From the NCBI GenBank assembly GCA_039801085.1, contig JBDRTY010000002.1:124001-188000 (forward strand): a stretch of DNA of 64,000 bases. Direction: 5' to 3'. The translations under genes and the position numbers were made by a program. Of this stretch, positions 7,704 through 57,871 are shown one piece after another. Within the stretch, counting starts at the first letter, position 1. Every line of letters starts with the position of its first letter. This DNA is from a candidate division WOR-3 bacterium. GTDB lineage: Bacteria > Hydrothermota > Tepidihabitantia > Tepidihabitantales > Tepidihabitantaceae. The notes beneath the pieces are model-generated. The model worked only from the letters and a program-made list of their open reading frames with translations. It made no database searches and had not been told where the DNA came from.

Positions 7704-8957
7704 ATGGTGACGGCAGATGATTTTACCGCCAGGGTCCTGGAATCCGGTATTGAGGCGGTGGACCCGATTGAGGTTGAACGCTTGCGCCGGATTGTCAGCG
7801 CCCGGATTCAGGAGTGTGCCCAGAGCCCGGAGGAACTGCTGACCCGTATCGGGGCGATTGGTCCGGAGGGGAAACTGACCGTTGCCGGACTGCTGCTCTG
7901 CGGCCGGGAGGAGGAGTTGCACCGGCTGGTGCCGGGTCATGGTGTGATCTTCCTGCAGATGAAGAATGATGTGGAATACGAGCGCCGGGTTGAGTCCGGA
8001 AAGCCGCTGCTGGCGCTGATTGATGAGCTGTGGCAGGCGATCGAGCCGCACAACCGAATTTACACCTTGAAGATCGGGCTGTTCCACTTTGAAATTCCCG
8101 ACTATCCGGTTGAGGTCTGCCGGGAGGCACTGCTGAACGCATTTACCCATCGTGATTATTCAATCCTGAGTCCGGTCTATGTCCGGCTGTATCCGGACCG
8201 GCTGGAAATTTCATCGCCGGGCGGGTTTGTGTCCGATGTGTCCTCAGAAAATATCGTGGGCCATGAGCCGATCAGCCGCAACCCGCTCTTGGCACAGATT
8301 CTGCAGCGGATCGGGCTGGTGGAACGGGCGGGGATGGGGGTAAAGCGGATGTTTCAGGTTCTTTTGTCCTACGGGAAGGAACCGCCCAATTATGAGGCGG
8401 GCGCAGACTTCGTGCGGGTGACCATCCGTTCTGACCGTGCTGAGGGCAGGCTGGATGAGACCTTTGCCCGGTTTGTCGTCCGCTGTCAGCAGGAGGGCAG
8501 GGAGCTGAGACTGCCGGACCTGCTGATTCTGAACTGGCTGAAGCGGAACCGGGAGGTGGATGCCTCGGAGGCGCGCCGGATTATCTGCCGGTCCGAGCGG
8601 GAGGCGTATGAGGTGCTGAATTCAATGGTCAACCGCGGGCTGCTGGAGCAGTTCGGGGAGAAGAAGGGCCGGGTTTACCGGCTGTCCAAGATGGTATATG
8701 CCCAGCTGCGCCGTTCGCTGAGTTATCTGCCGTTTCACCGGGCAGAGCTGGCTTATGCGGAGACCGCAATTCTGAACTATCTGCAGGAACTGCCGGGCCG
8801 GGCTGAGGAGCGGTTCGTCACCAATGAGATTGTCCGGACTTTGCTGCGGGTTTCACCCCATCAGGCGGGCTATGTGCTTGCCGGACTGGTGAAGAAGGGA
8901 CGGCTGGTGCTGAGGGGCAGGGGCAGAGCGGCAAGGTATTATCCGGCGGAAGGTTAG
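7704..8957 (+). CDS. RecG-like ATP-binding (HATPase_c_4) regulator without AlbA domain
   Basis: 417 residues. Residues about 50-240 match the segment that follows the Schlafen/AlbA_2 domain in so-called ATP-dependent DNA helicase (RecG-like) regulators: LTVAGLLLCG, then EVCREALLNAFTHRDYS (GHKL-type Asn box), EISSPGGF and SRNPLLAQILQRIGLVERAGMGVKRM. The usual N-terminal AlbA_2 nucleic-acid-binding domain is absent. The C-terminal 150 residues hold two winged-helix-like stretches (ASEARRIICRSEREAYEVLNSM, and VTNEIVRTLLRVSPHQAGYVL). The ATG is 1 nt after rmlB, so it is co-transcribed with the dTDP-sugar genes. Its stop overlaps the stop of the convergent peptidase gene. Function unknown. Confidence 0.75.
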   Translation: MVTADDFTARVLESGIEAVDPIEVERLRRIVSARIQECAQSPEELLTRIGAIGPEGKLTVAGLLLCGREEELHRLVPGHGVIFLQMKNDVEYERRVESGKPLLALIDELWQAIEPHNRIYTLKIGLFHFEIPDYPVEVCREALLNAFTHRDYSILSPVYVRLYPDRLEISSPGGFVSDVSSENIVGHEPISRNPLLAQILQRIGLVERAGMGVKRMFQVLLSYGKEPPNYEAGADFVRVTIRSDRAEGRLDETFARFVVRCQQEGRELRLPDLLILNWLKRNREVDASEARRIICRSEREAYEVLNSMVNRGLLEQFGEKKGRVYRLSKMVYAQLRRSLSYLPFHRAELAYAETAILNYLQELPGRAEERFVTNEIVRTLLRVSPHQAGYVLAGLVKKGRLVLRGRGRAARYYPAEG

Positions 8958-11900
8958 TTGCGGACGATGAATTTGTCCCGATAGGTGGTGGAGCGGATCT
9001 GGAGCGTGGCACCGGAGAGGTCACCAGCCCGGGCGTCAATCTTGTAGAGATAGATGCCGTTGGCAAGCGGACTGCCATCGCGGTCCAGCCCGTCCCATTC
9101 AATCTGGTTGTAGCCGAAGGGGCATTCGACCGGACCGAGAATGCGCACCAGTCTGCCGGCGATGGTGTAAATTTTAACTGTTACGGTCGCAGGCCGGGAG
9201 AGGATGAAGGTGAAGTATGCCCGGCGCGCAACCGGATTGGGGTAGACAAGACAGGAGTCGAGCCGGAGCTCTTCCCTAAGATCGGTTTTCAGAAAATAGA
9301 CCGCGGTGCGGGTGTTCAGGCAGTTGTCGGTGGCGGTCAGGACAAGCGAGTCCAGCGGCTGGTCCAGTTCAACCGGCAGGGAGAAGGTGCCGGAGTTGCC
9401 CCGCTGATCGTCGTAGCGGAACAGGTCGGCAAGTTCCACCCGGCGGGTGCGGTCGTTGATAAACAGACTGAGGCTTTTTTCCAGATTCGGAATTAAAAGG
9501 AGCCCTGCCGGGTCGGTGAGTCTGCCGCTGAGGCGGAAGCGGCGCGGCACCCGGGTCGTGTCACCAGGACGGAGCAGGTTATTGTCGGCAGAGAGCAAAA
9601 TCTCGGGTGGCTGGGAATCGGCAATCTGGACCGGGTCCGGGCTCAGGTAGAGGGAGTCGGAGATCAGCGCCCTGAGGATTGTGTCGTTCCAGACCAGACC
9701 GGTGAGCCGGCAGGTGTTGCGCAGCCGGGCGTACCAGCCGTTGTCCACAACCACCGTGTCCGGAAAATCAAGCCGGGGGACGATAAATGTGCCGGTAATT
9801 GAATCCCGGAATCTTCCGGTCAGCCGGAAGACTTCCCCAGCGGGCAGATCATAGCTGGCGCTGCCAACCGTTGAACGGTAGAAACGGTGGCGCCAGGCTT
9901 CGGTGGCGCGGAGAGCAAACCATCCGCTCATTTCCGATGCTGTGGACCAGCTGACCACAGCACCGGGGTTCAGGGTTTCCGGATTAACCGCAATGGTGCC
10001 GGTGGCAGCGGGCAGGTGGATGCGCAGGGTCGGGTCGCCGAAGAGGATATAGAGGTTGTAGGTGAGCCAGGCAGGATAGAAGGCGGCGCCGATGGGCTGA
10101 GCCGGATTTTCCAGCAGTTTGGAGAAAAAGATCCGGGCAAAGCCCTCATTACCGCCGGAGTAGGTCGCCTTTGATGCACCCATCGTGGCGATACAGCCTT
10201 CACCACTGCGCACCAGCTCTTCCGCAATTGATTCGTAGCGGGTGTCTTCAAATCTGCCGACTCCGCAGGAGCCGAAGAAGGCGACCGGCAGACGGGTGGC
10301 GTTGCGGACCCGGGGGACATCGTCAATATGAAACACCCGCTCGTGTGCCAGCTGGAAGCCGGCACCATGACCGAAATAGCACCAGAGGAGTGTGCCCTGA
10401 TTGAGCAGGCGGATGAGTTCAGTACCGGCACGGGGTTTGGAATTGGGACCTTCAAGTTTGTATTCCGTGAGGTAAAGTTTTTCGATGTCCAGCCGTTCGC
10501 CGATGAGGGCGGCAATGTTCTCACAGTTATAGAGATGTGCGAATGATTCGGGTTTGCTGACATCACCGAGAAATTCATCATCCGCCAGCAGGAGGAAGCG
10601 CCGGGTCCAGAGATCAGGCTGCTGGGTCTCATACCGGCGGAGCTTTTCCAGAAACTGGCGGACCTGCTGCGGGGTGCGGGCGGTGAAACGGGCGAGGATC
10701 ATGTCCGGGCCCGACCCTTCGCCGTCAAAGTCGGCATACCAGGCATCAAGCGCCCGGACATATTCGTTGTAAACTTCGTAATCAAGGTCAAAGCCGATCT
10801 CATAGGCGGGCACACCGGGCGGCGGGTTGAGTTTGAGATTGTCTTTGTAGTCATAGGTGGCATCGCCGAGGAGCAGTCCGTAGGCGGGGCGCTTTGCCCG
10901 CAGGAATGCCTTGATTGCCCCCGGCTCCTCCATACCGAAGGCGTAGTCATCGTAAATCTGGCTGAGGGCAACCGCCCGTGCCCGGCCGTTGGCAATGCCG
11001 GGTATTTTCCCGCTGCGGTAATCCGCCAGGAGCCGGGCAGGAGCCAGAAACTGGTCCGGAGCAATGATGTAGTAGTCAGCGGTTTCTTCCGGAAGACGGA
11101 GGTTGCCAGGGTTGCGCCGCTGGAGTTGAGGTGCGCGGAAGGCAGTGGCGCGGGCGGCAAAGATGCGGTTGATGGAAGCGGTGAGGAGCAGGGAAGCGGT
11201 GTTACCGGTGATGCCGGTGAAGCACCGGGGTTGCCAGGGGTCAGTGATGTCAAGGATCATGGTTGCCGGATCGACGCCGGCGACACTGAGCTGGACCGGG
11301 GCGGTGGTGTAAAATGTGAGTTCCGGATTCTGGGCGCTGAGTTCCAGCCGGGTGAGGTAATCGACTTCAATGTAGTCAAGATAGACATCGCCCGCACTGA
11401 GCAGTTCCACCGTCAGGGTGTCAATGGTCCGGCTGGAGGCGGCGGCAGGACCGGGCAGACTTTCAAACACAAAGGTATTGGGCGGACAGCCGCGGCTCTG
11501 GGCAATGATCGCCACGGTATCCAGCAGTTCCCCGTTAAGACGGATGAGCGCCCGATATGCGGTCGGCTGTTCACTCTTGCCATAAAAGCGGACGGCAAGA
11601 CTTTTAATGGTGTCGCGCCCGGGAAGGATGAGCTGACAGTGATAGGGTTCGCCGGCGGTTGTATAGCGCTCCCAGAGCCAGAGCAGACCGCCCCGTGCCG
11701 GACAGAGCAGGTCCTGTTCCAGCCGGACCCGGGTGCGGGCACGATTCACCGGTGCTTCCGCTCCGACCGCAATTGCCTCCATTCTTCTGCCGTTATCACC
11801 ACCCCAGGTGAGCCAGAAGGTCTGGTAGCGGGTATAGTAATTTTCCCTCCAGCGGGTCAGCGAGTCGTTCCACCATGACGGCGACTGGGCATAGAAGATG

Positions 11901-12751
11901 ATATGGTCCTGCGGGTCAAATCTGCCATCGGTTTCACCCGGCACCAGTATCGGGAGTTCAATCATGGTGTCCGGATATGGTCCGTTAAGCGGATGGGGTC
12001 CGAGGGTGAAGAGGTGAATGGTGCGGGGGTCAATGGTTGCGGGCTCGATGCCGGCATTTCTGAGCTGGGTGTAGGTCAGGCGGTAGATGCCGGTGGTTTC
12101 GGTCCGGACCTGGTACCACTGACTGAAACGGGTAAAGAAGTTTATTGAGTCAGGGGCAAGCGGGAGTTTCCAGTTTATCGCCTGAGAGCCGTTAATCATA
12201 GTGGTGCTCAGAAGAGAATCGAGCGGATCCGGAGCATAATTATCCTTCGGCGGTTCGGTGAAGTTGATGATTACACGCAGCCGGGCAGTGCGGAGTTTTT
12301 TCCGAATGGGGTTGAAGCGGAGCGGGTTGAGGCGGAGCCGGGCGACGCGGATGTTGCGAATGGTTTCCACCGTCTCAATTTCTGCCCAGTTTTCAGGAAA
12401 GAACCGGTCCTGAGTGAAGACCGCAGAGGTCGCTGTCTGCTTTTCACTGAGTGCGGGGGCGGGCGGAACGGTGACATCGGAAAATTCCTGCAGGTTTTCA
12501 ATCTCGGTGCTGAGCCGGATCGCCCCGGTTTGAGGACAGCCGAGCAGAATTCTCAACCCGGGCAGATCAGGTTCACCGGGTTTTACGACAGGAACGGTTC
12601 CGGGGACGGTTACCGCATTGCGGTCTGGTGCGATGAACACCGACTCGGGATTGAATTCAAGCACAAGGTGGCGGGCGTCGGATTCGATCAGCCGCAGATT
12701 CGTGTTACCGGCGAGTGTTAAAAAAAAGACAAACAAAAGGGATGCGGTCAT
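8954..12751 (-). CDS. Gingipain-like C25 peptidase with FlgD-type C-terminal domain (PorU-like)
   Basis: 1265 residues. A signal peptide (MTASLLFVFFLTLAG) is followed by a long beta-rich N-terminal half and a peptidase C25 domain from about residue 560 to 910. The catalytic His is in CYFGHGAGF (about 790) and the Cys in FFGSCGVGRFE (about 828), the His-Cys dyad of gingipains and of PorU, the type IX secretion sortase. After Ig-like modules, residues about 1170-1250 are a FlgD/Por-type domain (VYPNPVARRAYFTF ... TVKIYTIAGRLVR ... NGIYLYKI). The length and extended N-terminus are more PorU-like than gingipain-like, but a secreted protease remains possible. The ATG lies 6 nt after the -10. Confidence 0.8.
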   Translation of the reverse strand: MTASLLFVFFLTLAGNTNLRLIESDARHLVLEFNPESVFIAPDRNAVTVPGTVPVVKPGEPDLPGLRILLGCPQTGAIRLSTEIENLQEFSDVTVPPAPALSEKQTATSAVFTQDRFFPENWAEIETVETIRNIRVARLRLNPLRFNPIRKKLRTARLRVIINFTEPPKDNYAPDPLDSLLSTTMINGSQAINWKLPLAPDSINFFTRFSQWYQVRTETTGIYRLTYTQLRNAGIEPATIDPRTIHLFTLGPHPLNGPYPDTMIELPILVPGETDGRFDPQDHIIFYAQSPSWWNDSLTRWRENYYTRYQTFWLTWGGDNGRRMEAIAVGAEAPVNRARTRVRLEQDLLCPARGGLLWLWERYTTAGEPYHCQLILPGRDTIKSLAVRFYGKSEQPTAYRALIRLNGELLDTVAIIAQSRGCPPNTFVFESLPGPAAASSRTIDTLTVELLSAGDVYLDYIEVDYLTRLELSAQNPELTFYTTAPVQLSVAGVDPATMILDITDPWQPRCFTGITGNTASLLLTASINRIFAARATAFRAPQLQRRNPGNLRLPEETADYYIIAPDQFLAPARLLADYRSGKIPGIANGRARAVALSQIYDDYAFGMEEPGAIKAFLRAKRPAYGLLLGDATYDYKDNLKLNPPPGVPAYEIGFDLDYEVYNEYVRALDAWYADFDGEGSGPDMILARFTARTPQQVRQFLEKLRRYETQQPDLWTRRFLLLADDEFLGDVSKPESFAHLYNCENIAALIGERLDIEKLYLTEYKLEGPNSKPRAGTELIRLLNQGTLLWCYFGHGAGFQLAHERVFHIDDVPRVRNATRLPVAFFGSCGVGRFEDTRYESIAEELVRSGEGCIATMGASKATYSGGNEGFARIFFSKLLENPAQPIGAAFYPAWLTYNLYILFGDPTLRIHLPAATGTIAVNPETLNPGAVVSWSTASEMSGWFALRATEAWRHRFYRSTVGSASYDLPAGEVFRLTGRFRDSITGTFIVPRLDFPDTVVVDNGWYARLRNTCRLTGLVWNDTILRALISDSLYLSPDPVQIADSQPPEILLSADNNLLRPGDTTRVPRRFRLSGRLTDPAGLLLIPNLEKSLSLFINDRTRRVELADLFRYDDQRGNSGTFSLPVELDQPLDSLVLTATDNCLNTRTAVYFLKTDLREELRLDSCLVYPNPVARRAYFTFILSRPATVTVKIYTIAGRLVRILGPVECPFGYNQIEWDGLDRDGSPLANGIYLYKIDARAGDLSGATLQIRSTTYRDKFIVRN

Positions 12752-34061: not shown

Positions 34062-37000
34062 TTACCGGCTGAACCAGTGGTGGACAATTTGCGCCGCCCT
34101 TTTACCCTGCGGAGTATAGTCGTCAATCACCAGTTCATGCTCAATGTCCATCGGTGCCGGGTCGGTTTCCCATTTCCAGAAGTGGAAGCCGTAAAACCAG
34201 GGCAGGGGCTCAAGTTGCTCCGGGTTGCGCCAGAACGCCCGGAACGCAGCCTCATAGCAGTTTGCCTGCTCATTGAAGTCCACCCGCATCCTGCCGCCGG
34301 TTGAGGTTTTGAGGATCGTGCCCGAGTCGCCAACCGCAAAGCCGACAAGGTCATAATACCCCTGCCGGTTCACCAGCCGGATCTGAATTGAGCGCAGGGG
34401 CAGATAAACATTGGAGTACTGGACACTGCCGTTAAACTGCCAGGCAGAGCCGGCACGGAGAATCAGTCCGCCGGTCCCGCAGGCAAACCGGGCGGAGTCG
34501 TATTCCGGAACCGAAACCGAGAGCAAATCCCAGGAGCCGGTACGAAACTGCGCAACCTCCCAGCGGGCACCACCGTCAGTAGTGTGAAGCATTATCGCCT
34601 GATCACCGACGATGAAGCCGGTATCCGGGGTCAGCAAGTCAACCGCATTGAGCCGGACCGTTACCGGGCAGTCCAGCCGGTGCCAGGAGTTGCCACCGTC
34701 AGTGGTCTTGAGGATCGTCCCCTGTTCACCCGCAATATAGCCGGTCTGTCTGCCGGCAAAATCGATTGCGCGCAGCTGCAGCTGGAGGGTTTCGCCTGAG
34801 GGTAAAAGGCAGAATTTTCTTTCCCAGCTTTTGCCGCCATCAGTGGTTTTCAGGATTGTGCCGTTAGCTCCGACGACATAGCCGGTGCGGGTATCAGCCG
34901 GAAAACAGACCGAATAGAGGGTTGTATTTGTGCCGGTCCAAAGCGGTTGAATGCGGGCAAAGCCGTCAACTGTCTTCAGGATTACCCCCGACTCGCCCAC
35001 TGCATAACCGGTATCCCGGGCGGGAAAGCTGAGCGCATAAACTGTCCTGTTTGTGCCGGAGGGGCATAAGTTCCAGTTTCTGCCGCTGTCGGTTGTTTTG
35101 AGAATGATACCTGAATCACCGGCGATATAACCGTTCATCGTGTCAACCGGAAAGCAGACCGCATTCAGCCTTCTGGTGGTAAGCCGGTGGCGGACGGAAT
35201 GCCAGGCATGGGAGGTGTCCGGAGTGCCCAGGGCGGCGCTGTCCAGACTGCGGTAGCCGATCTCGGTGAACAGGATCGGCCGGTGAATCCGCTGATAAAG
35301 CTCATTTAACTGAGGAATCCGCAACCGCTCCCAGGAGCGCGGGCTTCTCCGCCGGATCTGCTCCAGGTCCGGCTGCTGGGTGATTGCGGTGTCATCCGGA
35401 TACCGGCCCGGATAGGCGGTTGTCTCCACGAGTGGAAAGTAGGGATGGATACCACAGATGTCAATCCCGTCCCAGAAGTAATCATTTACCGGGCTCCAGG
35501 AGGCACCGTAGGCGAGCGGTCCGGAATAGCAGGCGCGCACCGCCGGGATGACCTTCGTGCGCCAGAGCTGTGCTTCCTCAGGCGAGTCCAGGGTCTGATT
35601 GATTTCCAGACCGATGGTGAGCATCTCCACCCCTTTTTCTTCTGCCAGTCTTGCACAATGGGTGGCGTAAACCGATTCTGCCCAAAACCAGGCGGTATCG
35701 GACTGGGGGTTATGCCGACCGCACCATGTCCGGGTGGAGCAGGCAAGATAACAGCTGAGTGCCACATTCAGACCGCGGGCATGAGCGTAATCAATGACCA
35801 GCCGGATTGAACTGTCGGCAGGTGATTCACCGAAGAGCGGTTTCAGATAGCTCCAGCCCGGTCCGGTGTCCCGCATCAGCCAGCGGGAGTTTACTGCCAC
35901 CCAGTTGGCACCGATTCCGGCAAGTGAGTCCAGCGCCGGAAAGGTCCGGGAGTAAAAATAGGTTGAATCATAGGTGGTGGGAAAACAGAACCCCCTGTGG
36001 GTGGCAAGGGTGGCGTTGAATTTTCTCATTACCTCCTGCGCCTTTTTGTTGTGCGGGGTATAACCGGTATTACCCGCACCGCCATCACCGGTGTCGGTCT
36101 GCCAGGCATAAAAGCACCAGCCGGCAAACCAGGGTCTGCCCGCCAGCGCATGATAGGCGGCGATATAGGAGTTGCGCTGGGCAACCGGGTCATAGTTTCC
36201 GCTCTGGGTATCATTTTCCGGTTGCAGGTAACAGCGGTCAATACTCCGGTAGCCGATTTCAGTAAAAAGCACCGGCCGGGGCTGGTCAAGACCGCTGAGG
36301 AAGTTTTCAATCTCGGGAAGATATTTGTGCTTCCAGAACCAGGCGAGCCCGTCAACCGAACCCGGCGGAAATTCAGGCGGCGGATAAGGCGGTTCATCGG
36401 CAGTCAGGGGGAAGAAGGCGTTGATGCCGATATAATCAAGAGATTGCCAGAACGGAATCTGGCGCCAGGTGCGCCAGTCCGCACCATAGGTCAGGGCTGG
36501 AGGCTGGCTGGCTTTTCTGAAAACTTTCCGGACCTGAGCGATTGTCCGGTGCCATTCAGCCCTTTCCCAGGTTTCGTCTGTGGTCCGGTCCAGTCCGGCG
36601 CCGATGGCGAAAAGTTCACAGCCGGTTCTGAGCCCGATTTCGGCATAGTGGAGAATGAACCGGCGATAGGCGGTGAACCAGAGGGTATCAGGCGGGTTGT
36701 GAAAAAGCGGGCTGACCCCGGAGCGACAGCGCAGCTGGGGCTTGAGAAAGACCCTGATGCCGAGGTTGCGGGCAAGGCGGATGATATGGCTGATTTCACG
36801 GTCAGACGGTGAGCTGTCCGGCAGCCAGAAGATCTCGCTTTTGCCGGTGTCGGTCATCCACCAGACCGGCTGAATCACCACCCAGTTGATTCCGGTGCTG
36901 AACCTCATCTGCACCAGGGCAGTTTCGGCAGCAGGGGAGTCGTAGGAATACCGGGCAGAGGTCCGGATCAGCGTCATTCCCTTGATCAGTTCATCCGGAC

Positions 37001-37073
37001 CGGGCTGAGCAGAAAATCCGCTGCTGGGGAAGCAGAAAATGGCAACTATTCCGAAGAAGAGAAACCGGCGCAT
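34062..37073 (-). CDS. Secreted double glycoside-hydrolase-like protein with propeller inserted in second barrel
   Basis: 1003 residues. Signal peptide (FLFFGIVAIFCFPSSGFSA). Residues about 30-350 are a GH113-like TIM barrel (INWVVIQPVWW, VFLKPQLRC, FAIGAGLD, DYIGINAFFPL, ILFTEIGYRS-like VLFTEIGYRSID, GWCFYAWQTDTG). Residues about 360-615 begin a second barrel with the same order (NWVAVNSRW, LTIGLEINQT, DICGIHPYFPL, ILFTEIGYRSLD). It is then broken by about seven YCF48/HCF136-like blades (residues ~635-920, repeated GYxxGxxGxILKTTDGGxSW). Afterwards the missing barrel end resumes (YEAAFRAFW ... WFYGFHFWKWETDP ... YTPQGKRAAQIVHHWF). The substrate is unknown, perhaps beta-mannan by analogy with GH113. 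Confidence 0.75.
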   Translation of the reverse strand: MRRFLFFGIVAIFCFPSSGFSAQPGPDELIKGMTLIRTSARYSYDSPAAETALVQMRFSTGINWVVIQPVWWMTDTGKSEIFWLPDSSPSDREISHIIRLARNLGIRVFLKPQLRCRSGVSPLFHNPPDTLWFTAYRRFILHYAEIGLRTGCELFAIGAGLDRTTDETWERAEWHRTIAQVRKVFRKASQPPALTYGADWRTWRQIPFWQSLDYIGINAFFPLTADEPPYPPPEFPPGSVDGLAWFWKHKYLPEIENFLSGLDQPRPVLFTEIGYRSIDRCYLQPENDTQSGNYDPVAQRNSYIAAYHALAGRPWFAGWCFYAWQTDTGDGGAGNTGYTPHNKKAQEVMRKFNATLATHRGFCFPTTYDSTYFYSRTFPALDSLAGIGANWVAVNSRWLMRDTGPGWSYLKPLFGESPADSSIRLVIDYAHARGLNVALSCYLACSTRTWCGRHNPQSDTAWFWAESVYATHCARLAEEKGVEMLTIGLEINQTLDSPEEAQLWRTKVIPAVRACYSGPLAYGASWSPVNDYFWDGIDICGIHPYFPLVETTAYPGRYPDDTAITQQPDLEQIRRRSPRSWERLRIPQLNELYQRIHRPILFTEIGYRSLDSAALGTPDTSHAWHSVRHRLTTRRLNAVCFPVDTMNGYIAGDSGIILKTTDSGRNWNLCPSGTNRTVYALSFPARDTGYAVGESGVILKTVDGFARIQPLWTGTNTTLYSVCFPADTRTGYVVGANGTILKTTDGGKSWERKFCLLPSGETLQLQLRAIDFAGRQTGYIAGEQGTILKTTDGGNSWHRLDCPVTVRLNAVDLLTPDTGFIVGDQAIMLHTTDGGARWEVAQFRTGSWDLLSVSVPEYDSARFACGTGGLILRAGSAWQFNGSVQYSNVYLPLRSIQIRLVNRQGYYDLVGFAVGDSGTILKTSTGGRMRVDFNEQANCYEAAFRAFWRNPEQLEPLPWFYGFHFWKWETDPAPMDIEHELVIDDYTPQGKRAAQIVHHWFSR

Positions 37074-38726: not shown

Positions 38727-39104
38727 GTGGCAGAGTCACGGTTTGTGACCGCAATTAACTGTATGGATGGCAGGGTGCAGTTGCCGGTGATTGCCTGGCT
38801 GAAGGCGGATACCGGTGCTGATTATGTTGATAATATCACTGAGCCCGGTCCGGTGAAGATTCTTGCCGAGGGCAGAAACCGGGTGCTGCTGGGTTCGATC
38901 CGGCGCCGGGTGAAGATCTCGGTTGAACGGCACGGCTCCAGACTGGTTGCCATTATTGCCCACCATGACTGTGCGGGAAATCCGGTTGATGAGCAGACCC
39001 AGCGCCGTCAGCTGGAGCGGGCGATCCGGCGGGTGGAGTCCTGGGGGCTCGGGGTCAGAGTTGTCGGGCTGTGGGTGAATGAGCAGTGGCAGGTTGAAGG
39101 TTGA
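38727..39104 (+). CDS. Small beta-carbonic-anhydrase-like zinc protein
   Basis: 125 residues. TAINCMDGRVQLP and IIAHHDCAGNP supply a Cys-x-Asp-x-Arg and His-x2-Cys set, the four metal/catalytic positions of beta-carbonic anhydrases. The protein lacks most of the helical framework of the ~200-residue enzymes and, in place of a gate region, has TEPGPVKILAEGRNRVLLGSI. It may be a minimal hydratase or a non-CA relative. GTG start 5 nt after AAAGGAGG. Monocistronic; rbfA has its own promoter overlapping the stop. Confidence 0.65.
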   Translation: MAESRFVTAINCMDGRVQLPVIAWLKADTGADYVDNITEPGPVKILAEGRNRVLLGSIRRRVKISVERHGSRLVAIIAHHDCAGNPVDEQTQRRQLERAIRRVESWGLGVRVVGLWVNEQWQVEG

Positions 39105-55615: not shown

Positions 55616-57823
55616 TTACCCTGGTCCTTTGTCAGCTGGGGTCACAAAGCCAAGGACAATCAGCTGTTCATTGATGCGATAGGTGGTGACTTTGATCTGC
55701 AGGCGGCGAATCGTGCCATCCCGCATCAGCCCGTCAAACTGATACTCATTGGGTGCCGGTTTGCCCTCCTTCCGCGCCTGGAGATATCCGGTAATCCGTT
55801 CCCGCTCCGATTCGGCAACCAGCTCCACTACCGGTTTGCCGATCACCTCATTGAGCTCATAGCCGAACAGCTCGGCAAATCTCGGATTGGCGTAAACAAT
55901 TCTGCCCTCATGCTCGGCAGCGATGCCATGGGGTGAGTATTCCAGGATTGCCCGGGTGTGCGAGAGCATCTCCTGGACCTGACGGCTGAGTTTTTCCCGT
56001 TCGCTTAAATCCTGAGCGACCACCATGATTGCCGGCTGCCCCTGCCAAGTGAGGGGTGCGTTCCGAACCTCAACTAAAATGTAACTGCCATCACGGCGTC
56101 TGAGCCTTTCCCTGACCGGCGGGTTGCTCGTTCCCTTTTCGAGGGCGGTGCGGATCCGTTTGACCGCAAGCGGCCAGTCGTCGGGATGGACAAATTCAAC
56201 TACGCTCATACCGAGCAGTTCTGCCGGTTCATCGTAGCCGAGCATGCGGGCACCGGTGCGGTTGATCATGACGATTCTGCCCTGCTGGTGGACTGCAATT
56301 GTTATCGGAGCGATGTCAATCAGGGTCTGATAGTTATTCAGGCTTTCCTTGAGCTGGCGCTCAATTATCCGGTAATCGGTAACATCATGGGCCAGACCTA
56401 CAGTGCCCAGCAGCTCGCCGTCCAGCCCGCGCAGCGGTTCCACCAGGGCGAGATAATATTGTTCGCCCTGGATAAATTCAAACTGCACCGATTCCCCTTG
56501 GAGCGCCCGCTCAAGCAGGTTGTCGATATCCGGCCGGTTGCCGAAAATGGCGGTCACCCGGCTGCCGACAAAAGTTCCCGGTTGAGTTGTCAGGCTGTGG
56601 ATACCGGAACCGATTGCCGAGGTGCATGTGAGTCTGGTGTCGGTCGTCCAGATCAGCGCCGGAACCTGGTTGAGCAGAAGCCGGAGCCGGGCTTCATTCT
56701 CCCGGAGTTCCAACAGCGCCTGCTTTTCTTCGGTGATATCACGAGCGATCGTAAGGATCAGCGTTTCGTCCTCAAGCTCCACCAGGGCGTTGCTCAAAAG
56801 CAGCCAGAGCGGCCGGCCGTCCCGGCGCCGGGTGTAGATTTCCGCCTGAAACTGCCGCTTATCCAGAATGGCGGTGCGCATCTGGGGCAGAATTACCGCA
56901 ACATCGGCAGGGACAATGTCACGCAGGCGTCTGCCGGTAATTTCAGATTCCGGCAGTCGGAACAGGCGGGGGGCGGCACGGTTGATCCGGATGACGGTGC
57001 CATCCATCTTTTCCAGAAATATGGCGGCGGATTCGGCGTCAAAAAGTTTTTCCACCAGCAGTGCGTGCTTTCTGACTTCCGCCCGCAGCTCAAGTTCCGC
57101 GGTAACATCACGGCAGAGCGCGTAGATCAGCTGCTCAGTCGGGGAGGGCAGCAGTTCCGCCTTCACCTGTAAGGTCCTCTCCCTTCCCTGGTGATCCAGA
57201 ATATGCAGGGTGATTTCACCGCTGCCTTTGCGTAATAACCGGCGCCCGAAGCGGGCGAGGGTAAGGCGCTCTTCGGGATGGATAAACCGGTCTACGGGTT
57301 GATTGAGCAGCTGTTCCATGTTCAGGCCGGTGATGGCGGCGGCCGCGGCGTTTGCCTCCTGAATCTGGCCGCGGGTGGAGAGAACAACGATGGCATCCTT
57401 TGACAGCCGTAAGACCGCCTGGTACTTTCTTTCCACCTGCAGTGCCTTCTCAGTCGGCTGCCAGAATGGTGTCACATCCCGGCCGATGCAGACGATACCG
57501 GCCGGAGTGCCTGATTCATCCAGTCCGACGGTAGCAAAGAAATAAAGACTCATACTGATGCCGTCCTTTCGGATGAATTCAAAGCCATTCGCAAAATCCC
57601 GACCCGCCAGAACCGTTTTAACATTCAGGCCCGAATCCGGGAACAGACCGCTCCAGGGCATGCCCAGCAGTTCCTCCCTGCTCAACCCCAGTGTCCGGTG
57701 TGTCTCCTCATTAACCTCAACAATTCTGCCCGCGAGGTCCAGCGTGATGATAATATCACCGGGCTGGATACTGATGTTTTTAAAGATCAGTCCCCGGGAT
57801 CTTTTTTTCTTCCGTTCGGGCAT
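55616..57823 (-). CDS. Six-PAS sensory protein without output domain
   Basis: 735 residues from ATG 57823 (SD CGGGAG 9 nt upstream). Six PAS/PAS-PAC modules follow one another, starting near IIITLDLAGRIVEVNEE, AIVVLSTRGQIQEANAA, AAIFLEKMDGTVIRINRA, PALIWTTDTRLTC, ITIAVHQQGRIVMINRT and HGIAAEHEGRIVYANPR. They carry typical ends such as RDVTPFW, RDVTAELEL, RDITEEKQ, HDVTDYR and QDLSEREK. There is no histidine kinase, GGDEF, methyl-acceptor or DNA-binding domain and no membrane segment. The gene stops right after the sixth PAS. It lies where a V-ATPase D gene would be expected. Confidence 0.85.
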   Translation of the reverse strand: MPERKKKRSRGLIFKNISIQPGDIIITLDLAGRIVEVNEETHRTLGLSREELLGMPWSGLFPDSGLNVKTVLAGRDFANGFEFIRKDGISMSLYFFATVGLDESGTPAGIVCIGRDVTPFWQPTEKALQVERKYQAVLRLSKDAIVVLSTRGQIQEANAAAAAITGLNMEQLLNQPVDRFIHPEERLTLARFGRRLLRKGSGEITLHILDHQGRERTLQVKAELLPSPTEQLIYALCRDVTAELELRAEVRKHALLVEKLFDAESAAIFLEKMDGTVIRINRAAPRLFRLPESEITGRRLRDIVPADVAVILPQMRTAILDKRQFQAEIYTRRRDGRPLWLLLSNALVELEDETLILTIARDITEEKQALLELRENEARLRLLLNQVPALIWTTDTRLTCTSAIGSGIHSLTTQPGTFVGSRVTAIFGNRPDIDNLLERALQGESVQFEFIQGEQYYLALVEPLRGLDGELLGTVGLAHDVTDYRIIERQLKESLNNYQTLIDIAPITIAVHQQGRIVMINRTGARMLGYDEPAELLGMSVVEFVHPDDWPLAVKRIRTALEKGTSNPPVRERLRRRDGSYILVEVRNAPLTWQGQPAIMVVAQDLSEREKLSRQVQEMLSHTRAILEYSPHGIAAEHEGRIVYANPRFAELFGYELNEVIGKPVVELVAESERERITGYLQARKEGKPAPNEYQFDGLMRDGTIRRLQIKVTTYRINEQLIVLGFVTPADKGPG

Positions 57824-57843
57824 CAACCAAGACTCCCGTTCAA

Positions 57844-57871
57844 ATAGTATGCTGACCGGTGGTTTTGTCAA
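57844..57871 (-). promoter_or_regulatory. Promoter of the PAS protein gene
   Basis: Minus strand: TTGACA (57866-57871), 16 bp, TACTAT (57844-57849), then a 20-nt leader with CGGGAG before the ATG. The TTG of the -35 box is in frame with the gene and could be mistaken for its start. Confidence 0.7.

Follow-up and report, generated by a model that had tools for sequence, protein, structure and literature searches.

A YCF48-type propeller within the second of two GH113-type barrels in a predicted exported protein of a candidate division WOR-3 bacterium

The protein and its genomic surroundings

The window analysed here is a stretch of 64,000 nucleotides from a candidate division WOR-3 bacterium. 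Positions 34062..37073 of its minus strand hold a single intact open reading frame with an ATG start, coding for 1003 amino acids. The gene sits between a gene for a Vut_1-family transporter and one for a class II (D, K and N) tRNA synthetase, and genes resembling hslU, argF and trxB, named from a reading of their sequences, are found nearby. No glycan-use cluster is visible around the gene, its neighbours being housekeeping genes. Elsewhere in the window we noted a gingipain-like peptidase C25 of 1265 aa (8954-12751, minus strand) carrying a propeptide and a FlgD-Ig end, like type IX-secreted proteins; a protein of 751 aa that matches PAS repeatedly but, at the threshold used, no output domain (55616-57871, minus strand); and a small putative carbonic anhydrase family protein, Pro_CA_2 (38727-39104, plus strand).

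The 1003-residue protein is built from two GH113-type barrels, the second of which is broken by a propeller, and it is probably exported, with a signal peptide read from the sequence at residues 1-22 (MRRFLFFGIVAIFCFPSSGFSA; 37008..37073, minus strand, as for all features below). A Pfam search matched GH113 (PF22612) in three stretches (E=4.7e-71, 239.9 bits against a cut-off of 27) and the YCF48 family PSII_BNR (PF14870) in four (E=1.9e-40, 139.5 bits against a cut-off of 27). The relatives with solved structures fall into the same two groups, the GH113 mannanases 4cd6, 3civ and 5ylh and the YCF48 structures 8am5, 5ojp and 2xbg. When the parts were searched separately, PF22612 gave 148.8 bits for barrel 1 and 78.9 bits for the first part of barrel 2.

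Barrel 1 runs without interruption through residues 28-352 (36018..36992), with its best Pfam stretch at 34-343 and matches to GH113 mannanases in the PDB at E values from 5e-22 to 1e-20; in a genome-level profile search it covers positions 2-289 of the GH113 profile in one piece. In the same search barrel 2 is split over profile positions 12-226 and 236-288, and the propeller falls in the gap. Its first part, β1 to β7 plus the start of the β7-α7 loop, occupies residues 356-618 (35220..36008) and retrieves GH113 mannanases when searched alone, 4cd6 at E=4.4e-15. The YCF48/BNR propeller follows at residues 622-928 (34290..35210), and α7, β8 and α8 of barrel 2 make up residues 929-1003 (34065..34289), which correspond to residues 255-314 of AaManA. 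This layout agrees with the original prediction, made from the DNA letters and their translations, that one barrel is continuous and the other interrupted after TEIGYRSLD. Its landmarks are confirmed, barrel 1 carrying TEIGYRSID at residue 271 and barrel 2 TEIGYRSLD at 603, and the junctions expected at about 34300 and 35200 lie near 34290 and 35210. The insert itself was correctly recognised, but at about 305-310 residues it is larger than the roughly 290 first proposed.

The propeller and the active sites of the two barrels

By sequence pattern the propeller has seven blades, starting at residues 634, 676, 717, 765, 806, 849 and 891, the last of them ending at 928. The seven-blade YCF48 propeller that had been proposed is thus upheld by the blade count, by the PSII_BNR match and by a mostly confident structural model. 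The final blade lacks its outer strand, and a stretch ahead of blade 1, SHAWHSVRHRL, is positioned to supply it. The ring would then be closed by this stretch, with both ends of the propeller side by side, as insertion into a loop requires. Against the equivalog model of the Ycf48 photosystem II assembly factor (NF010237) the protein scored 106.2 bits, far below the cut-off of 326. The GC and GC3 of the insert are similar to those of the remainder of the gene.

The propeller begins about 15-18 residues past the nucleophile position of barrel 2, Glu604, and stops just before helix 7, taking the place of the tip of the β7-α7 loop. This is where it had been expected, nested in a barrel loop beside an active-site Glu, and it comes directly after the nucleophile strand; the C-terminal segment, likewise as expected, aligns with the last helix-strand-helix of GH113. 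In PcMan113 numbering the insertion point is the site of N246 and W248, inside a loop (R243-N255) that gives the substrate channel of that enzyme its shape (PMC10992819). Our alignment shows that the same loop reads RPWEW or similar in single-barrel relatives and is replaced in barrel 2.

In order to see how barrel 2 might fold around the insert, we obtained two AlphaFold models of residues 350/354-1003 from shallow alignments that left out the GH113 loci of the genome search, β1 being included in the second alignment only. Mean pLDDT was 68 and pTM 0.52-0.53 for both, and the propeller reached a pLDDT of about 75-95 over most of its length, with lower values toward its end. In the second model strands 1-7 follow in order together with most of the helices, strand 5 appearing only as short bridges; after the propeller come helix 7, strand 8 and helix 8. 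The eight strands are thus in the order expected of a barrel completed after the propeller, but the C-terminal pLDDT is low, about 30-68, so that closure of barrel 2 by this segment is supported rather than shown by the modelling. A Foldseek search with the models returned seven-bladed YCF48 structures at TMt 0.72-0.74, as well as designed propellers, and GH113 structures at TMt 0.55-0.57. None of the GH113 alignments is long enough to reach across the insertion, so they have no bearing on closure.

We mapped the catalytic residues by aligning both barrels to AxMan113A (5ylh) and to 14 single-barrel GH113 proteins from genomes of the WOR-3 phylum and of Bacteroidota. Acid/base and nucleophile are both Glu in 5ylh and in all 14 single-barrel proteins. 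Barrel 2 retains the pair as Glu490 (acid/base, 35604..35606) and Glu604 (35262..35264), and both positions are Glu in every one of the three genomes that carry the architecture. Barrel 1 has kept its nucleophile, Glu272 (36258..36260), but has Gly160 (36594..36596) in place of the acid/base, and the same is found in G001, a genome of the same genus. In G017, which belongs to another genus, Glu occupies both positions in both barrels, making four catalytic Glu. The idea of two barrels with matching landmarks is well founded, but the barrels are not equivalent; the original prediction had overlooked both the acid/base loss in barrel 1 and the loss of conserved substrate contacts in barrel 2.

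These contacts can be followed at eight positions of PcMan113 (N98, W104, R105, D183, Y204, W282, D283 and Y300), several of which are not constant among the phylum's other GH113 proteins either. Barrel 2 has A, W, C, S, Y, W, K and Y there and so retains four (W104, Y204, W282 and Y300); barrel 1 has R, S, P, D, F, Y, A and Y and retains two (D183 and Y300). In barrel 2 of the window genus the β3 motif LKPHxD has in addition become LSCYLA. With Gly160 at the acid/base position and only two of the eight contacts, barrel 1 very probably does not work as a normal hydrolase, and we would regard it as a GH113 homologue that should not be counted among active GH113 enzymes. Having lost the β3 motif and several contacts, barrel 2 could have an altered activity or none, and may be either active on a changed substrate or en route to losing its activity. 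Even an intact set of residues does not guarantee activity: clade 5 GH113 enzymes are reported to have shown none on the mannans assayed, although their machinery was conserved (PMC9032380).

Distribution, origin and selection

A profile search found GH113 in 17 of the 147 genomes of the phylum, and two barrels only in three of them: the window genome, G001 and G017. G001, the closest genome, carries the same open reading frame at 92% identity, and the public contig that matches it is JAOABP010000003.1, also of candidate division WOR-3 (L036/L043). G017, of a different genus in the same family, has the same domain order and the same insertion site at about 37-48% identity per barrel (about 37% for barrel 2). 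Homologues with the same insertion, which had been suggested as a check on the architecture, therefore exist both within the genus and beyond it. A search of 84,980 genomes with short exact peptides, which reaches close relatives only, recovered the full architecture in L036 alone, together with three single barrels from Bacteroidota; no GH113 was found in viral contigs.

The G017 gene is spread over two contigs that overlap by 62 exact bases in frame. One (C154) carries barrel 1 and reaches the β7 loop of barrel 2; in the other (C124) a single frame leads from the β7 motif across the propeller and finishes barrel 2, and further domains and a Por secretion tail come after it. By sequence its propeller has six blades, one being absent where, in register, blade 2 of the window protein meets blade 3. 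A sorting tail is absent from the window protein and present in this relative. The two-barrel gene seems to be present in G017 in several copies, either neighbours or paralogues (L040, L041, L042); the contigs end inside these copies, as expected from repeats, and a repeat protein of about 530-555 aa, propeller-like in look, adjoins a two-barrel copy (L040, L042).

In a tree of the barrels, the barrel 1 copies group together with 100/99 support and the barrel 2 copies with 99/98, and this separate grouping dates the two-barrel form to before the divergence of the two genera. Barrels 1 and 2 are sisters at 89/87, in line with the duplication that had been proposed, but this support disappears when barrel 2 of G017 is removed. 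A duplication within the gene is the likely origin of the two barrels; they may alternatively derive from a fusion of two related genes. As to the propeller, long YCF48-repeat proteins abound in this WOR-3 family (for instance open frames of 786 and 696 aa; L010, L015 and other loci) and offer a ready source of blades. A recent horizontal insertion was considered and rejected, as the base composition of the insert matches the rest of the gene and the insertion is older than the split of the two genera.

We also looked for other traces of mannan use. No GH26 mannanase is present in the three genomes with the architecture. GH130 is present in all three, and also in 67 of the 147 genomes of the phylum, many of them without GH113; a link to mannan use through GH130 was thus discarded, since this distribution provides no evidence for it.

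Compared with the gene of G001, the window gene has its lowest dN/dS, 0.14, in the first part of barrel 2; barrel 1 is at 0.31, the propeller at 0.34 and the last part of barrel 2, from few changes, at 0.33. The signal peptide gave about 1 and the neighbouring HslU 0.075. All mature domains are under purifying selection and are kept as protein.

Possible function and relation to known systems

The reading that we favour, at a probability of about 0.5, is of an exported protein, derived from GH113 and active on glycans, in which the propeller contributes to the cleft of the one barrel that has both catalytic Glu. Barrel 1 would be non-catalytic or badly crippled by the loss of its acid/base. 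Barrel 2 would have the Glu/Glu pair of a retaining hydrolase of clan GH-A, the tip of its channel-shaping loop having been swapped for the propeller. The chain would exit barrel 2 after strand 7, form the propeller with both of its ends meeting in a single blade, and return for strand 8. Along this path the propeller would come to stand at the edge of the active-site face, either as a fixed wall or as a binding platform. There it could select the glycan, β-mannan or another β-linked polymer, that reaches the site of barrel 2. In this scheme we infer the closure of barrel 2, the position of the propeller over the cleft, the hydrolase activity of barrel 2, its substrate and the gating role.

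The strongest rival, less probable though a serious possibility, is that both barrels are pseudoenzymes and that the exported protein binds glycans or acts as a scaffold, its barrels and propeller serving as binding surfaces only. Barrel 1 without its acid/base and barrel 2 without the KPHxD motif of β3 and several substrate contacts would fit such a protein, as would the lack of adjacent glycan-degradation genes and the independence of GH130 from GH113 in the phylum. It accounts less well for a catalytic pair that barrel 2 has kept in all three genomes, for the lowest dN/dS of the whole protein lying in the first part of that barrel, and for the presence of both Glu in both barrels of G017. 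Selection also bears on the unlikely case of a tolerated passenger, a self-folding module in a permissive loop that faces away from the cleft and has no effect on the barrel. The propeller does have the highest dN/dS among the mature parts, its blade number differs between genera (seven or six), as if its exact shape were not critical, and a source of blades was at hand; yet its dN/dS is well below 1, the insertion has been held at an identical site in two genera, and it removes the tip of a loop that gives the substrate channel its shape in characterised relatives (PMC10992819).

That an assembly or binning artefact has joined unrelated pieces is hardly credible. The relatives do come from metagenome assemblies, in which repeats could mislead an assembler, but the junctions recur in an independent assembly of the same genus and, at about 37% identity in barrel 2, in the other genus, the reading frame is continuous and uniform in composition, and selection extends over all of it. 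Misassembly at the junctions, the outcome named beforehand as fatal to the architecture, is ruled out by the independent occurrences in G001/L036 and G017.

For the glycan-active protein that we prefer, a more speculative and rather improbable extension is that propeller and dead sister barrel together build, above the single active site that is left, a channel that is regulated or selects substrates. Such a channel would follow the logic of the propeller gate of prolyl oligopeptidase, evolved independently on a TIM barrel. In prolyl oligopeptidase and DPP-IV a propeller on the active-site side of the hydrolase limits substrate access; these enzymes have an α/β hydrolase fold, so the enzyme part is not homologous and the analogy is a functional one, for gating only.

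The description of the architecture as unusual holds in the light of a survey in which nearly all GH113 members were single-domain proteins, with one CBM8 exception (PMC9032380). As GH113 is reported almost always as a lone domain, joining two barrels and inserting an entire propeller at the active-site rim of the second represents an unusual step in enzyme evolution. In the open-access literature, to which our search was confined, we found no description of a propeller inserted in a TIM-barrel glycosidase, and as far as we have checked the architecture is an inherited one that is unreported for GH113. It offers a natural test of how a TIM barrel tolerates an insertion of 300 residues beside its nucleophile, and an informative comparison between a genus with all four catalytic Glu and one that lost the acid/base of barrel 1 while retaining the catalytic pair in the barrel that bears the propeller.

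The protein shares fold family and profile with the GH113 β-mannanases (AaManA 4cd6/3civ, AxMan113A 5ylh, BaMan113A 7dvj and PcMan113), and like them it has recognisable acid/base and nucleophile positions and a conserved C-terminal helix-strand-helix. Unlike them, it has two barrels with the second split by a propeller, no acid/base in barrel 1 and several substrate-contact substitutions in barrel 2. The single-barrel GH113 proteins of the phylum (L051, L044, L046-L050) are about 30-37% identical to the barrels, as measured for L051 and L044; they have all the active-site Glu and neither a second barrel nor a propeller. The match to a C-terminal sorting domain is weak in one of them (L051) and clear in G017. 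With YCF48/HCF136 (PF14870; 5oj3, 5ojr, 2xbg), the best structural match of the models at a TMt of about 0.73, the propeller shares the seven blades, the GYxxGxxGxILKTTDGGxSW pattern and a strand at its N-terminus positioned to complete the ring; here, however, it is inserted in an enzyme loop of a WOR-3 bacterium rather than being a free-standing photosystem II assembly factor.
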